Assembly: GCF_004151105.1 (NCBI RefSeq)
Contig: NZ_PHRF01000035.1
Location: forward strand, 62,001-126,000
Reading direction: 5' to 3'
DNA from: Streptomyces sp. L-9-10
GTDB lineage: Bacteria > Actinomycetota > Actinomycetes > Streptomycetales > Streptomycetaceae
Length of the DNA stretch: 64,000 nt
In this document: piece after piece, positions 37,356 through 45,644 of the stretch
Numbering within the stretch: the first letter of the stretch is position 1
Layout: the number at the start of each line of letters is the position of its first letter
Notes under the pieces: model-generated
What the model saw: only the letters and a program-made list of their open reading frames with translations
The model's database searches: none
What the model was told of the DNA's origin: nothing
Translations under genes and position numbers: made by a program

Positions 37356-39413
37356 TTACACCCGTCGTACGACATGCAGCAGATACTCCTTGCGGTTGAG
37401 CGGATTGTGGTCCGTTCTGGGCCGGGCCGGGATGGTGTCGCGGACCGCTTCATAGTGGTCGAAGGACGCTTCGAGCACACCTTCTCCACTGGTCAGCGTA
37501 GGCAGCCGCTGTTCCAGTTCATGGACCCGGGCCGCCGGAATCTCCCCCTCCAGCAGATACGCGTGGCCGTTCGCCGACGAGGTGCGCGGGACGGCGCGCA
37601 GGCGCCCCAGGACGGGCAGTACGGCGCCGAGCGCGTCCGCCGGGAGGTCGAGCCGGAAGCGGTGCATCGGCTCGTACACCGTGGTGCCCGCCCTCTCCAG
37701 GGCGCTCATCAGCACCAGCGGGGTGAGATGGCGGAAGTCGCTGCCGGTGCTCGACATGCTCTTGTCGAAGACGCCGTGGGAGTGGCTCTGCCGGGGTGCG
37801 TAGCCGGAGTGCGTCATGGTGACCACGCAGTCGGTGACCTGCCAGCCGTGGATCCCCTGCCGCAGCGACTCCTTCACGGTGTCCTCCACGGCCTTCATGA
37901 ACGCGTACGGCATCGACCCCAGCTCGACCTCCAGCCGGAATTCCACGCCCGCGCCGACGGGAGCGGGATCGACGCGCAGCCCGACGGTCGCCAGAAAGGG
38001 ATTGGGATCCTTTCCCATGATCTCGGCGGCCGCTCCGCTGCCCGCGGGCCGTTCCACACAGATCGTCGTGGTCTCGCGGAAGGTGACGTCGACCCCGAAT
38101 TCGTCCAGCAGCGTCGCCTGGATGACCTCTTTCTGCACCTCGCCGTAGAGGGAGACGGAGATTTCCCGCCGGATCCGGTCCTGCCGCAGATTGATCAGCG
38201 GGTCCTGTTCGGCGAGCTGGGTGAGCGCGGCGTACATCGCGCCCTTGTCGGCGGCTCGGCGGGGAACGACGACTGTTTCGAGCGTCGGCGGGGAGAAGAA
38301 CCGGCGCTCCGCGGGGACGGCGGGCGGAATTCCGATCTCGTCGCCGATGCGGATGTCGCCGAGGCCCCGGAGCTTTCCGATCCGCCCGGCGGAGACCGAC
38401 GCGCGCCGGACGGCGGACCCGCGGTCGAACACGCTGATCGCGGTGACCTTGTCCTCCATGTCCCGTACCTCGTTCACCGGATCGCCCCCAGCATGGCCCG
38501 CGGTATCGCTCTGCGTGTCGGTCTGCGGATCGCGGTGGTATCGCAGCAGGTCCCGCGTCCTTACCGTGCCCGAGAACATCCGTACGTATGCGATCTTCTC
38601 CCCTGCCGGCCCCCGTTCCATCTTGAAGACCGTGCCGGAGACGGGCCCTTCGGGATCGCCTCCCGCCCTGGGCAGCAGTTCCCTGATGCCGGTGATGAGC
38701 GCGTCCACACCCGCGCCGGTGATCGCCGAGCCGAAGTAGACCGGGTGCACGAGCGCCCGTCGGGTCTGGCCGGCCAGTTCTTCGCGGAGCCGGTGGTACG
38801 GGAGCGCCGCCGGGTCGTCCACGTACGCGGCCAGCAGTGCGTCGTCGTGCTCGGCGAGCAGTTCGGCGAGCCCGGAGGTGAACGCGGCGTCGCCGGCGCC
38901 GTACGGCACGGGCAGCGCGGCGCGTGTGCCCAGACCGGTGGCCGCCCCCATCGCGATCACCGACGGGGAGAGCTTCTCGGACATGGCCCGCAGCACCTCT
39001 TCGTATCGCGCGCCGGTGCGGTCGATCTTGTTGACGAAGATCAGGGTGGGAATGCGCAGCCGCCGCAGCGTCCGCATGAGCACCCGGGTCTGCGCCTGCA
39101 CGCCCTCGACCGCGGAAATGACCAGCACGGCGCCGTCGAGCACGCCGAGGACCCGTTCCACTTCGGCGATGAAATCCGGGTGGCCGGGGGTATCGATCAG
39201 ATTGACCGTGGTGTGGCCGACGACGAACGAGACGACCGCGGATTTGATGGTGATGCCACGCTGTCGTTCCAGCGTCAGGGAATCCGTCTGGGTGCTGCCG
39301 TCATCGACACTTCCGATCTCGTCGATGACACCGGCGGTGAAGAGCAGCCGCTCGGTCAGACTTGTCTTACCGGCGTCGACATGCGCCAGAATTCCCAGGT
39401 TCAACGTACTCAT
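37356..39413 (-). CDS. otrA: Tetracycline-resistance ribosomal protection protein, OtrA/Tet(M)-like
   Basis: The 685-residue protein is an EF-G-like GTPase. GTP-binding motifs are AHVDAGKTSL near residue 10-19, RGITIKSA near 53, DTPGHPDF near 74 and VNKIDRT near 127. The later domains include the tip loop region QSHSHGVFDKSMSSTGSDFR near 565-585, like that of Tet proteins that dislodge tetracycline from the ribosome. The length is close to OtrA. A short Asp/Thr/Gly-rich insert lies near 300. The start is fixed: an in-frame TGA is three codons upstream. The ATG has no good ribosome site (only GAGG, 12 bp away), and it is buried in a leader ORF and hairpin. No antibiotic cluster surrounds it. 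Confidence 0.9.
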   Translation of the reverse strand: MSTLNLGILAHVDAGKTSLTERLLFTAGVIDEIGSVDDGSTQTDSLTLERQRGITIKSAVVSFVVGHTTVNLIDTPGHPDFIAEVERVLGVLDGAVLVISAVEGVQAQTRVLMRTLRRLRIPTLIFVNKIDRTGARYEEVLRAMSEKLSPSVIAMGAATGLGTRAALPVPYGAGDAAFTSGLAELLAEHDDALLAAYVDDPAALPYHRLREELAGQTRRALVHPVYFGSAITGAGVDALITGIRELLPRAGGDPEGPVSGTVFKMERGPAGEKIAYVRMFSGTVRTRDLLRYHRDPQTDTQSDTAGHAGGDPVNEVRDMEDKVTAISVFDRGSAVRRASVSAGRIGKLRGLGDIRIGDEIGIPPAVPAERRFFSPPTLETVVVPRRAADKGAMYAALTQLAEQDPLINLRQDRIRREISVSLYGEVQKEVIQATLLDEFGVDVTFRETTTICVERPAGSGAAAEIMGKDPNPFLATVGLRVDPAPVGAGVEFRLEVELGSMPYAFMKAVEDTVKESLRQGIHGWQVTDCVVTMTHSGYAPRQSHSHGVFDKSMSSTGSDFRHLTPLVLMSALERAGTTVYEPMHRFRLDLPADALGAVLPVLGRLRAVPRTSSANGHAYLLEGEIPAARVHELEQRLPTLTSGEGVLEASFDHYEAVRDTIPARPRTDHNPLNRKEYLLHVVRRV

Positions 39414-39477
39414 GGAGCGTCATGTCCTCTAGATAGGCGGTGGTGACCTTCCGGATGGGCATTGACGCTCCACGCAT
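39367..39477 (-). CDS. Leader peptide ORF overlapping the otrA-like start
   Basis: An ATG at 39477 has an excellent AAGGAG site 6 bp upstream, much better than that of the resistance gene. The frame encodes 36 residues (MRGASMPIRKVTTAYLEDMT, then LHEYVEPGNSGACRRR) and ends at a TAA 46 bp inside the resistance gene, in a different frame. It includes the rare codon CTA. A ribosome reading it must pass through the hairpin that covers the resistance-gene start. This fits translational coupling or attenuation sensed through ribosome stalling. Translation of this ORF is inferred. Confidence 0.6.
   Translation of the reverse strand: MRGASMPIRKVTTAYLEDMTLHEYVEPGNSGACRRR
39411..39472 (-). promoter_or_regulatory. 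Inverted repeat sequestering the otrA-like start codon
   Basis: TGGAGCGTCA (minus strand, 39472-39463) pairs perfectly with TGACGCTCCA (39422-39413), whose last base is the A of the resistance-gene ATG. The 40-base loop lies inside the leader ORF. In RNA the 10-bp stem would hide the initiation region unless a ribosome moves through the leader. Confidence 0.65.
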
Positions 39478-39639
39478 AATCTTCTCCTTGATCAATGGGC
39501 TGTCGCGGGGAGTACAGCAGAGGCCGCCGCGGGCGGCAACTCATTTCCGCGGCGGACCGGGGACCCGGGGGCTCGGACGACTCGACCGGACCCCGGGCGG
39601 GTGACTCGCCTGGACCGCGGGCTCAGGGGCCGGTGCGGT

Positions 39640-40359
39640 TCACTCGCGGGCGAGGATGTACCACCTGGCCGGCAGATCGATACGGGTGCCGTCCGGCAGT
39701 TGTTCCGTCTGGACCAGCGCGGTGTCCCCGTCCGCCAGGATCCGCAGCCCCGCCGCGCGCAGCAGCTCGGGCACTTCCTCGTCCCCGGCACCGGCCGGCC
39801 TGAGCCCGTGGTCGAAGACCCGCCGCAGCTTCGCGGGCGGGCCGCCCGGCCCCGCCGCGGCCTGCTGGAGCACGGCCTTGGAGGCACTGGTCAGCTCGGC
39901 GACGAACGCCCGGCCGCGCTCCCCCAGCAGCTCCGCGACCGCGCCCGCCACCGCCGGCCGGTCCTGGGGCTCGCTCTGGTGGATGACCGCGCGCATATAG
40001 ACATTGGTGTCGCCCGTACGCTCCCGCAGCGCGCGCACCGCGTCGTGGTCGACCAGGTCGAGCTGCTGGAACTCCGCGGACTTCTCGGTGTCGGCACGCA
40101 GCGCGTGCGCGATCGCCGCGTGCGACAGGTCCACTCCGATCGCCCGTGCGAAGCGGGTGGCCAGATAGCGGGTCTGGGTGCCGTTGCCACAGCCGAGGTC
40201 GGCCACGGGCAGGGTGGTGTCGGCGTACGGCAGCAGCAGAGCGCTGTCCGGTACGGAGGTGAAGGACGGGTCCGAGTCCCAGATCGCCTCGCCGGGCGCG
40301 TCGGAGGTCTCCGCCCAGAAACCTTCCCATGCCTCGCGGTAACGCTGCGACACGTCCAT
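39640..40359 (-). CDS. Class I SAM-dependent methyltransferase
   Basis: The 239-residue protein has the SAM loop VADLGCGNGTQTRYLA near residue 52, IGVDLSHAAI near 75, and QQLDLVDHDAV near 98, with an unusual NVYMRAVIHQSEPQDR in place of the common motif IV. The C-terminal part (GLRPAGAGDEEVPELLRAAG, IDLPARWYILARE) is typical of small-molecule methyltransferases. The substrate is unknown. It lies just upstream of the resistance gene on the same strand, 162 bp from the leader ORF. A methylation role in resistance is possible but not supported by any motif. Confidence 0.82.
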   Translation of the reverse strand: MDVSQRYREAWEGFWAETSDAPGEAIWDSDPSFTSVPDSALLLPYADTTLPVADLGCGNGTQTRYLATRFARAIGVDLSHAAIAHALRADTEKSAEFQQLDLVDHDAVRALRERTGDTNVYMRAVIHQSEPQDRPAVAGAVAELLGERGRAFVAELTSASKAVLQQAAAGPGGPPAKLRRVFDHGLRPAGAGDEEVPELLRAAGLRILADGDTALVQTEQLPDGTRIDLPARWYILARE

Positions 40360-40380
40360 ATACGGCCTCCCCTGTTCCGG

Positions 40381-40395
40381 CCCGCCGAAGGCGGG
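40381..40395. terminator. Short hairpin between the phosphatase and methyltransferase genes
   Basis: CCCGCC-GAA-GGCGGG lies 22 bp upstream of the methyltransferase ATG and about 110 bp past the end of the SpoIIE-type gene. It could terminate the upstream transcript or shape the 5' leader of the methyltransferase mRNA. Confidence 0.4.
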
Positions 40396-40506
40396 CTGTA
40401 GAGGACCGGACTACCGTCCGCGCAGGTCGGGGGGCAAGGGGAAGGATGCCTCTTTCACACTCCGTTGGACCGCGCCCGTCCTTTCGCGCCGGGCGGGGGG
40501 CAGCCC

Positions 40507-43122: not shown

Positions 43123-43139
43123 TGACTGAAATTCAGTCA
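43123..43139. promoter_or_regulatory. Perfect palindrome resembling a TetR-family operator
   Basis: TGACTGAAATTCAGTCA is a perfect 17-bp palindrome. It covers the stop codon of the MFS gene and lies 121-137 bp upstream of the SpoIIE-type gene start, in the 134-bp gap and on the AT-richest part of it. A second weaker repeat, ACTA-ATCAG-TAGT, occurs near 43088-43100. No TetR gene is adjacent. Confidence 0.5.
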
Positions 43140-45644
43140 GTCTTCGTGGCCGAGTTGGAGATCGCGTTCGGTACGTCCGCCGCCCGCCACCTGGAGCACC
43201 GTGGCGACCGGCGGATAGCCCGCGGCGATCACCGTGTACTCACCCGACGAGAGATCCACGAACCGGAACGTGCCGTCGGCGCCGGTGGTGAGGGTGTCCA
43301 CCACATTGCCCGCCGCGTCGAGCAGGGTGACCCGCGCGTCCTCGACGGGACGGCCGCCCCCGGCGCGTACGGTGCCGCGCAGCACCGCCCCGCCGGCCAG
43401 CTCGATGTCCTGCCGGGTCTCCCGGGACGCCTGCACACTGACCGGCAGCGCGGCGGGCCGGAAGGCGGGGGCGCTCGCGGCCAGGGTGTACTCGCCCGCC
43501 ACCAACTCCGAGATCACATACGCGCCCTCGCGTCCGCTGCGGGTGCTCGCCACCACCTCGCCCCGTACATCCGTGAGGGTCACGGCGGCGTCCCGCACCG
43601 GCGTGCCGTCCGCGGTGAGCACGGCCCCGGCGAGCCGTCCGGCGCCACCGAGGACCACGTCCAGTTCGACGGGGCGTTCGCCGACGGTGACCGTGACGGC
43701 CTGGGGCTGGTGCCCGCCGGCCGCCGCGATCATCACGTACGAGCCGGAGCCGGGCACGCTCAGCGCGTACCGTCCGTCCTCGCCGCTCGCACCGCGCCCG
43801 ATCTGCTTGCCGTGGACGTCGATGAGGGTGAGGGCGGCGCGGGGCACGGTGGAGCCGTCGTAGTGCTGCACGGTGCCGCAGACCGCGACACCCGAGATGT
43901 ACGGGGCCGGTCCCGGTGCGGCGGGGATGCCGGGGTCGGACGCGCTGCGCGCGGCGGGGACGGTGCCGGACTCGGCTGCCGAGACGTTCTGGGACACCAG
44001 CGGTTTCTCCTTGAGGAAGAAGGCGATCAACAGGCCGAGGACGAGCACCGGCACGAGATAGAGGAAGACCCGCGGCATCGCGTCCGCGTATGCCTGGACA
44101 TAGCCCTCGCGCAGTGCGGGCGGCAGCGCGTGGACCGCCTGCGGGGTGATGGACTCGATGTCGGGGAGGCCGGCGTCCGCGGGGACACGGTCGGCGAGGG
44201 CGTCGGCGAGCCGGTTGGCGAAGAGCGTGCCGAAGACGGCGGCGCCGACACTGCCGCCGATCTGCCGGAAGTAGTTGTGGGCGCTGGTGGCGGTGCCGAG
44301 GTCGGCGGACGGTACGGCGTTCTGCACGGCGACGATCAGTACGGGCATCACCATCCCCGTCCCGAGACCGAGGGCGCCCTGCGCGATACCGCACTCCAGC
44401 ATGGACGTGTCGGCGTCCAGCCTGGACAGCAGCAGCATCCCGGCCACCGAGAGGGCCCCGCCGAGCACCGGATAGATCTTGTAGCGGCCGGTGCGGCTGA
44501 TGAGATGGCCGGAGGCGATGGAGGCGATGACGACGCCGCCCATCATGGGCAGCATCAGCAGACCGGACTCGGTGGCGCTGGACCCCTCGACCATCTGGAG
44601 ATAGGTCGGCAGATAGCTGGCGGCACCGAACAGCGCCACGCCGACCACCGCCCCGACCAGGCTGGTGATGTTGAAGACGGAGTCGCGGAACAGCCGCAGC
44701 GGGATGAGGGGTTCGGCTGCGAAGCGCTCAACGACCAGGAAGAGCAGGGCAGTTCCGACGGCTCCCGCGGTCAGCCCGAGGATGACGCGTGAGCCCCAGG
44801 CGTACTCCGTACCGCCCCAACTGGTCAGCAGCATCAGGCAGATGGACGAGGCGGTGAGCAGCAGCGCGCCCAGGACGTCGAGCCGGGCGCGGGCGGTCGG
44901 TTTGGGGAGCTTGAGCACGACGGCGACGACGGCGAGCGTGACCAGGCCGAAGGGCACATTGATGTAGAAGCACCAGCGCCAGGAGACATGGTCGGTGAAG
45001 AATCCGCCGAGCAGCGGGCCGGCCACGGACGCGAGACCGAAGGCCGCGCCGATCAGCCCCATGAAGCGCCCGCGCTCCCGGGGCGGCACGATGTCCGCGA
45101 TGATCGCCTGGACGCCGATCATGAGCCCGCCCGCGCCGATGCCCTGGATGGCGCGGAAGGCGATGAGTTCGTTCATGGTGCGCGACCAGCCGGCCAGCGC
45201 GGAGCCGATGACGAAGACGACGATGGCGAACTGGAAGACGCCCTTGCGGCCGAAGAGGTCGCCGAGCTTGCCGTAGATCGGCAGTCCGACCGTGGCGGTG
45301 AGCAGATACGCGGTGATCGCCCACGACATCCGGTCCAGGCCCTGGAGTTCACCGACGATCTTCGGCAGCGCGGTGGCCACGATCATCTGTTCCAGCGCGG
45401 CCAGCAGCAGGGCGAGCATCAGCCCGACGAAGACCAGCCGTACCCGGCGGGGGCTGAGGGCTTCCGCGGCGGCGGCGTCGGCGGGCGGGGGCGGCGGACG
45501 GTCGGCCGCGGCGGGGACGGGCGGTGGCGCGGCCCGTGCGGCCTCGTCGGCGCCGTTCCCGGCGCCGTCGGCACTGTTCCCGGCGCCGTCGGCACCTTTC
45601 CCGGGGCCGTTCCCGACGTCCTTCACCAGAGTGGTCCCGCCCAC
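43137..45644 (-). CDS. MFS drug exporter (DHA2 type) with C-terminal carboxypeptidase-regulatory-like repeats
   Basis: The first 560 residues are an EmrB/QacA-type 14-helix exporter: motif [15 protein letters not shown] near 125, and [19 protein letters not shown] near 80. From about 595 to the end there are three beta-sandwich modules of the carboxypeptidase-regulatory type ([60 protein letters not shown]). With 14 helices the tail would be cytoplasmic. It may bind substrate, wall material or a partner. The GTG at 45644 follows GGGGAG. The N-terminus has Gly/Ala/Asp repeats (GADGAGN). Confidence 0.88.

Follow-up and report, generated by a model that had tools for sequence, protein, structure and literature searches.

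The window, by which we mean the whole 64-kb stretch of DNA that was analysed, contains a gene for a ribosomal protection protein whose start is overlapped by a short leader open reading frame (ORF) and covered by a predicted RNA hairpin. The following features, all on the minus strand, are relevant here.

37356 to 39413, minus strand: otrA-like ribosomal protection gene encoding 685 amino acids, with Otr(A) and tet_protect as the nearest NCBIfam families
39367 to 39369, minus strand: leader stop TAA, made from the otrA P-loop codons GGT-AAG, an unusual glycine codon that is kept
39367 to 39477, minus strand: leader ORF of 36 codons with an ATG start, crossing the otrA start out of frame and kept in homologues
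39413 to 39422, minus strand: 3′ arm of the hairpin, TGACGCTCCA, including the A of the otrA ATG (from repeat and fold)
39424 to 39429, minus strand: Shine-Dalgarno-like GAGGAC of otrA, some 12 nt ahead of the ATG and within the inner part of the hairpin
39463 to 39472, minus strand: 5′ arm of the hairpin, TGGAGCGTCA, leader nucleotides +6 to +15 (from repeat and fold)
39484 to 39489, minus strand: leader Shine-Dalgarno sequence AAGGAG (from sequence)
39511 to 39516, minus strand: putative −10 element TGTACT, with a 17-nt spacer to the −35 element and 33 nt before the leader ATG
39534 to 39547, minus strand: upper part of a WblC/WhiB7-type promoter by motif, GAAATG (39547-39542) and the −35 element TTGCCG (39539-39534)

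The best NCBIfam matches of the encoded protein were Otr(A) (NF000120; 763 bits, curated cut-off 900) and tet_protect (710 bits, cut-off 775). Because the scores lie under both cut-offs, the protein is called Otr(A)-like, and its gene otrA in the following. The third gene upstream (43137-45644, minus strand) encodes a DHA2-type efflux transporter with a long C-terminal extension, whose best NCBIfam matches, OtrB and Tcr3, were far under their cut-offs.

The otrA ATG lies at 39413-39411 and, as the initial annotation had proposed, its position is fixed by an in-frame TGA three codons earlier (39422-39420). The same annotation had described the gene as almost lacking a ribosome binding site of its own. 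This did not hold, as GAGGAC is present about 12 nt before the ATG, and the AGGAC within it is conserved in homologues and sits in the inner stem of the hairpin. The leader, in turn, was found as described: an ORF of 36 codons at 39477-39367, preceded by AAGGAG, beginning 64 nt before the otrA start and ending 46 bp inside the gene, counted from the first base of otrA to the last base of the leader stop.

In 208 of the 392 genomes of the genus, a protein search gave a hit with an e-value no higher than 1e-100. From 572 relatives, the best 80 were retrieved, and the upstream DNA of 149 homologues, including the window, was read; 20 of these form a group of 50-56% identity and 129 lie outside it. 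The leader is present in 127 (117 distinct sequences from several genera) of the 128 close homologues whose upstream DNA could be read, the sole exception being L091 from an uncultured actinobacterium bin. According to the record titles, leader-bearing sequences come from Streptomyces, Streptosporangium, Nonomuraea, Micromonospora, Kribbella, Amycolatopsis, Kutzneria, Actinopolymorpha and Rubrobacter, among others. One homologue (L052) was dropped because its contig begins inside the gene, a motif variant with a leader (L032) was left out of the counts, and another (L015) was entered by hand, the leader pattern having been too narrow.

The distance between the two starts is 64 nt in 114 of the 117 distinct sequences, 67 nt in two (L009, L019) and 61 nt in one (L077). 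An ATG, GTG or TTG is found at the 64-nt position in 111 of the 114; the other three (L062, L073, L094) have a TTG 3 nt upstream and are among seven sequences whose otrA start was shifted from −15 to −12. The leader frame is free of stops in the 594 loop codons of 66 representatives, compared with 14 and 3 stops among 528 codons in the two alternative frames. Two homologues outside the main set (L218, L185) have a one-base indel and, as judged by eye, a leader that stays open across the start in another frame.

A looser WblC/WhiB7-type motif, consisting of AT-rich bases, a −35 TTG and a −10 element, precedes 98 of the 117 distinct leaders, compared with 0.2 expected from Markov shuffles. The distance from the −10 element to the leader start ranges from 27 to 66 nt across homologues and is mostly 32-50 nt. 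In the window, GAAATG deviates at one position from GAAAWY, the WblC motif upstream of the −35 element as given in PMC7157823, and the same source reports that WblC activates tetM transcription in S. coelicolor. Transcription would be expected to start upstream of the leader, at this WblC/WhiB7-type promoter.

The first leader codons and the otrA start form a perfect 10-bp inverted repeat, as initially noted, in which TGGAGCGTCA pairs with TGACGCTCCA. By itself this repeat is weak evidence, because the window has 16 positions from which a perfect 10-bp inverted repeat with a loop of 30-60 nt starts. An RNA segment reaching from shortly before the leader into otrA folds with −39.8 kcal/mol (z = −3.2), and 0 of 200 shuffles folded as well; Rfam gave no match at an e-value of 1 or better within 38500-40500. 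The initial annotation had named conservation of leader and repeat among homologues as a way to check its proposal. The leader and a hairpin hiding the start are indeed kept, whereas the exact repeat is confined, within the 117 distinct sequences, to that of the window. In its general form, leader GCG(T)TCATGTCC (codons 4-7) pairs with GGACATGACGC over the otrA Shine-Dalgarno sequence and the bases before the start, often lengthened by leader TGCGC pairing with otrA GTGCA. This hairpin core is part of the minimum-energy fold in 64 of 66 representatives.

RNAalifold returned a consensus structure on samples of at most 20 sequences, but none on samples of 30 or 50 or on the alignment of all 66; evidence was therefore drawn from counts of pairs and from folds of single sequences. 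With the structure fixed, 86.5% of the core cells pair, the covariation score is 0.124 versus 0.087 in shuffles (reached in 0 of 500), and 19 core cells are changed on both sides versus 7.1 in shuffles (0 of 500). Two further measures of covariation were weak, namely pairs with changes on both sides (5 versus 3.1; 23 of 500 shuffles) and extra pair types (13 versus 11.9; 133 of 500). For the full stem, 79.7% pairing and a covariation score of 0.131 versus 0.109 were obtained. Along a tree of OtrA with 103 sequences, 28 compensatory events were counted in the true register versus 3-18 in slid registers; the same counts also hold evidence to the contrary, with 141 changes from paired to broken in the true register versus 72-101 in the slid ones.

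Hairpin arms fit their own partner better than a foreign one (−22.7 versus −19.7 kcal/mol after exchange), and among 2829 swaps between sequences less than 70% identical, the swapped arms paired more weakly than the sequence's own in 76%. Compared with folds under synonymous codon choices, the leader fold is more stable in 90% of the 117 sequences (mean z −1.26). In five sequences (L180, L181, L182, L184, L186), the inner stem reads CGGGTCC:GGACTCG and not CATGTCC:GGACATG.

The end of the leader is constrained as well. The P-loop glycine at the leader stop is encoded by GGT in 108 of the 117 distinct genes, whereas elsewhere in the same genes GGT accounts for 9.7% of 6316 other glycine codons and for 0 of 116 other Gly-Lys sites. 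Seven of the nine genes without this GGT have GTT for the valine three codons earlier, which gives a leader stop TGA; of the remaining two, the leader of L022 stops earlier and that of L103 two codons later. In the group of 50-56% identity, GGT is present in 14 of 20 genes and GTT in the other six, so that all 20 follow the rule of GGT or GTT. L091, the homologue without a leader, has GTC and GGC at these positions, neither of which makes a stop. That two independent ways of making the stop alternate would be hard to explain unless the leader is translated. Judged by these codons, the leader stop itself is under selection, exerted via unusual otrA codons, with the reservation that kinship among the sequences inflates any probability computed from such counts. 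The possibility that the leader stop is a by-product of the OtrA P-loop was rejected, because the usage of GGT and GTT points to selected codons.

The loop peptide, in comparison, bears no mark of amino-acid selection. Among near neighbours, loop codons 8-16 contain 41 synonymous and 124 non-synonymous changes in the leader frame (omega-like value 1.26, versus 0.99 and 0.81 in the other two frames), and on these counts peptide-dependent stalling of the erm type was rejected for this segment. The conserved leader codons are those of the pairing arms, where selection on the peptide is inseparable from selection on RNA pairing. What matters in the leader is its openness, its early codons and its stop, and not the loop peptide. 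An unconstrained loop peptide points to arrest at the start rather than to peptide sensing as in erm leaders.

The initial annotation had taken the arrangement to be consistent with expression set off when drug-slowed ribosomes open the hairpin. In silico, a ribosome placed on the first leader codons is indeed predicted to free the otrA site. With a ribosome placed on the leader start, the mean energy for opening the otrA site in 114 sequences fell from 18.2 to 8.5 kcal/mol (drop of 9.7), and that of the window site from 21.9 to 8.1 kcal/mol (drop of 13.9). The same treatment changed 131 background gene starts, called imprecisely by a simple script, by a mean of 0.8 kcal/mol; the drop in the window exceeds all 131, and 88% of the otrA sequences lie above the 95th percentile of the background. 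For 66 representatives, the drop was 8.6 kcal/mol, versus 0.8 when the leader was shuffled. The closed site of the window is not unusually costly, as 15 of the 131 background starts cost as much to open. Unpaired probabilities changed modestly under the simulated ribosome, and the opening energy was the clearer measure. When ribosomes further along the leader were modelled by masking, with P-site codons 9-15, mostly the Shine-Dalgarno sequence and not the start codon was freed, and codon 12 freed neither.

Similar arrangements were found in more distant relatives. All 20 genes of the group of 50-56% identity have an overlapping leader (19 by script, L126 by eye); 18 of these leaders begin with MRR or MRQ, and the leader Shine-Dalgarno sequence is weak in some, e.g., L130. 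In at least seven members (L125, L127, L130, L134-L137), early codons of the kind CCTCGAAA pair in the fold with TTTCGAGG over the Shine-Dalgarno sequence, and in some of the group the pairing is different or weaker; the folds of L128, L131 and L132 were left out because of a wrong upstream start. With the simulated ribosome on the leader start, the mean cost of opening the otrA site in 19 genes of this group dropped from 14.0 to 6.6 kcal/mol. Two of its genes pass the Otr(A) cut-off (L188 with 990.6, L189 with 971.1), and both have a leader. No clear start-hiding hairpin was seen in the folds of the genes passing the cut-off, and the simulated ribosome changed the opening energy from 13.1 to 5.0 kcal/mol for L188 (L120) and only from 5.0 to 4.2 kcal/mol for L189 (L118). 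The loci L118, L120 and L121, comprising these Otr(A)-passing genes and a near copy, have a leader but no clear hairpin of this kind. Among seven loci still more distant (L169-L172, L176-L178), the script found a leader in six; the leader of L170 was seen and is unscored.

We consider it likely that the arrangement is a translational attenuator, one that senses drug arrest at the leader start and controls a ribosomal protection gene of the Otr(A) clade. The transcript would begin at the putative WblC/WhiB7-type promoter upstream of the leader. Without drug, ribosomes would initiate at the strong leader site, cross the otrA start in the other frame and stop just inside the gene, and behind them the first leader codons would pair with the otrA Shine-Dalgarno sequence and start, permitting little translation of otrA. 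In the presence of tetracycline, a ribosome arrested on the leader start or first codons would cover the 5′ arm and free the otrA Shine-Dalgarno sequence and start, where a second ribosome could initiate and make the protection protein. Leader translation, arrest at the leader start and induction by the drug are what we infer from this arrangement. The 5′ arm lies in the first 21 bases of the leader, inside or next to the footprint of an arrested ribosome, whose edge is given as +16 to +18 in PMC12121999, and this placement fits the absence of peptide conservation.

The main rival, which we regard as unlikely, is translational coupling. Ribosomes translating the leader would melt the hairpin, and otrA would be initiated behind them or by ribosomes sliding back from the stop; the leader would set a ratio, and induction would come only through the WblC promoter. 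Such coupling would be served by a leader that has a strong Shine-Dalgarno sequence, runs through the otrA start in the homologues scored and ends at a selected stop, by the hiding of the otrA site in the hairpin and by the activation of S. coelicolor tetM transcription by WblC reported in PMC7157823. However, ribosomes further down the leader mostly free the Shine-Dalgarno sequence and not the start codon in the masking model, and a stop 46 bp inside otrA is far away for stop-start coupling. The evidence for a selected leader stop slightly raises the probability of both the attenuator and the coupling, and it lowers, from small to very small, that of the reading in which a hairpin alone dampens translation of otrA, with an incidental leader ORF that stays open owing to high GC content. 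The omega-like value of 1.26 in codons 8-16 and the existence of homologues with a one-base indel (L218, L185) would suit this structural reading, but it is highly improbable given a stop that unusual otrA codons maintain and that is missing together with the leader, and given a leader frame free of stops where the other two frames have 14 and 3.

Transcriptional attenuation, as in tet(M) and the whiB7/wblC uORF, we consider quite improbable. In its favour, the two precedents have leaders or uORFs and answer to tetracycline or to other drugs that target the ribosome, as stated in PMC5418344 and PMC7157823. Here, however, the pairing occupies the Shine-Dalgarno sequence and start, and a search of 39340-39640 for intrinsic terminators yielded 0 terminator-like sites. 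Rho-dependent termination of untranslated otrA would be a conceivable form of such attenuation. A coincidence of a spurious ORF and a random repeat could appeal to the 16 positions in the window at which perfect 10-bp repeats begin, yet it is contradicted by the comparison, given the covarying arms, and has next to no probability: a leader in 127 of 128 homologues, a hairpin core in 64 of 66 representatives and a stop kept by unusual codons place the arrangement beyond chance.

The translational attenuator may be part of something broader, a possibility that we put somewhat below even chances. The out-of-frame leader over Otr(A)-clade starts would then be a clade-wide, peptide-independent tetracycline sensor that signals when a ribosome is arrested on the leader's own start codon. 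By virtue of the overlap, leader ribosomes would keep passing over the otrA start, and the gene would stay shut until initiation is blocked; the unusual P-loop codons would be kept solely to end the leader. CATGTCC:GGACATG and CCTCGAAA:TTTCGAGG would be two sequence solutions of one architecture, acting atop WblC-type control.

Several known systems resemble the attenuator proposed here. Tetracycline arrests E. coli ribosomes at start codons, and the toiL uORF of this species, which pairs with the downstream topAI Shine-Dalgarno sequence, frees it upon such arrest at its own start codon, as described in PMC12121999. According to the same source, toiL controls a toxin-antitoxin transcript and acts together with Rho termination, whereas the otrA leader precedes a resistance gene, overlaps it out of frame, also pairs with its start codon and takes its stop from otrA codons. 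Translational attenuation of tetQ and transcriptional attenuation of tet(M) are already known (PMC5418344). The Bacteroides tetQ attenuator likewise responds to tetracycline and controls a ribosomal protection gene (PMC5418344, PMC12121999), but the uORF mentioned in PMC12121999 has four codons, and phylum and gene clade differ. The leaders of erm genes share the leader ORF and a hairpin over the ribosome binding site that is opened by a drug-stalled ribosome (PMC5118997, PMC5418344); there, however, stalling depends on the leader peptide, whereas the loop peptide before otrA is free of constraint and its leader continues across the start of the gene.

Leaders also precede the ribosomal protection genes tet(M) and tet(W) (PMC5418344, PMC3350403). 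For tet(M), PMC5418344 lists transcriptional attenuation, in contrast to the otrA leader, for which no terminator was found in the region searched; the role of tetLP, the leader gene of tet(W), is stated as unknown in PMC3350403. The whiB7/wblC uORF and the uORFs of Streptomyces ABCF genes are further actinobacterial examples responding to ribosome-targeting drugs; they are described in PMC12421871 and PMC7157823 as acting by transcriptional attenuation, whereas the otrA leader pairs with the Shine-Dalgarno sequence and start of the gene itself. Among the matches listed in a search of the open-licence literature, none described a leader or an attenuator for otrA or for Streptomyces tetM. If the proposed mechanism is correct, it would explain how a tetracycline-resistance gene intrinsic to actinomycetes and akin to the Otr(A) genes of producers can answer the drug directly, beyond WblC-type control, and it would add a widespread natural case of sensing by start-codon arrest. 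The otrA codons at the leader stop are also an example of a resistance gene constrained by a leader that overlaps it.

The distribution of the element was further surveyed with RNA model R1. It returned no second site in the genome of the window at an e-value of 1 and matches in 75 of 249 genomes of the family (76 rows, two of which represent one site on both strands). All 37 of these 75 matches that were inspected (30 loci and 7 regions) lie before an otrA-like gene or a degenerate copy; in L227, the distance from the match to the conserved NLG downstream is 145 nt, as would fit an N-terminal extension. The element also precedes the otrA-like gene of S. violaceoruber (L071), a species close to the model S. 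coelicolor. In L103, labelled as a Phenylobacterium metagenome-assembled genome and thus as an alphaproteobacterium, an otrA of the actinobacterial type is accompanied by the leader, either by mis-binning or by transfer. In L191 (G688), the best match to R1 stands before a broken-looking otrA with a shortened reading and the P-loop lysine changed to arginine, although the leader is intact, and the otrA-like frame behind the intact leader of L225 (G720) has a degenerate P-loop.
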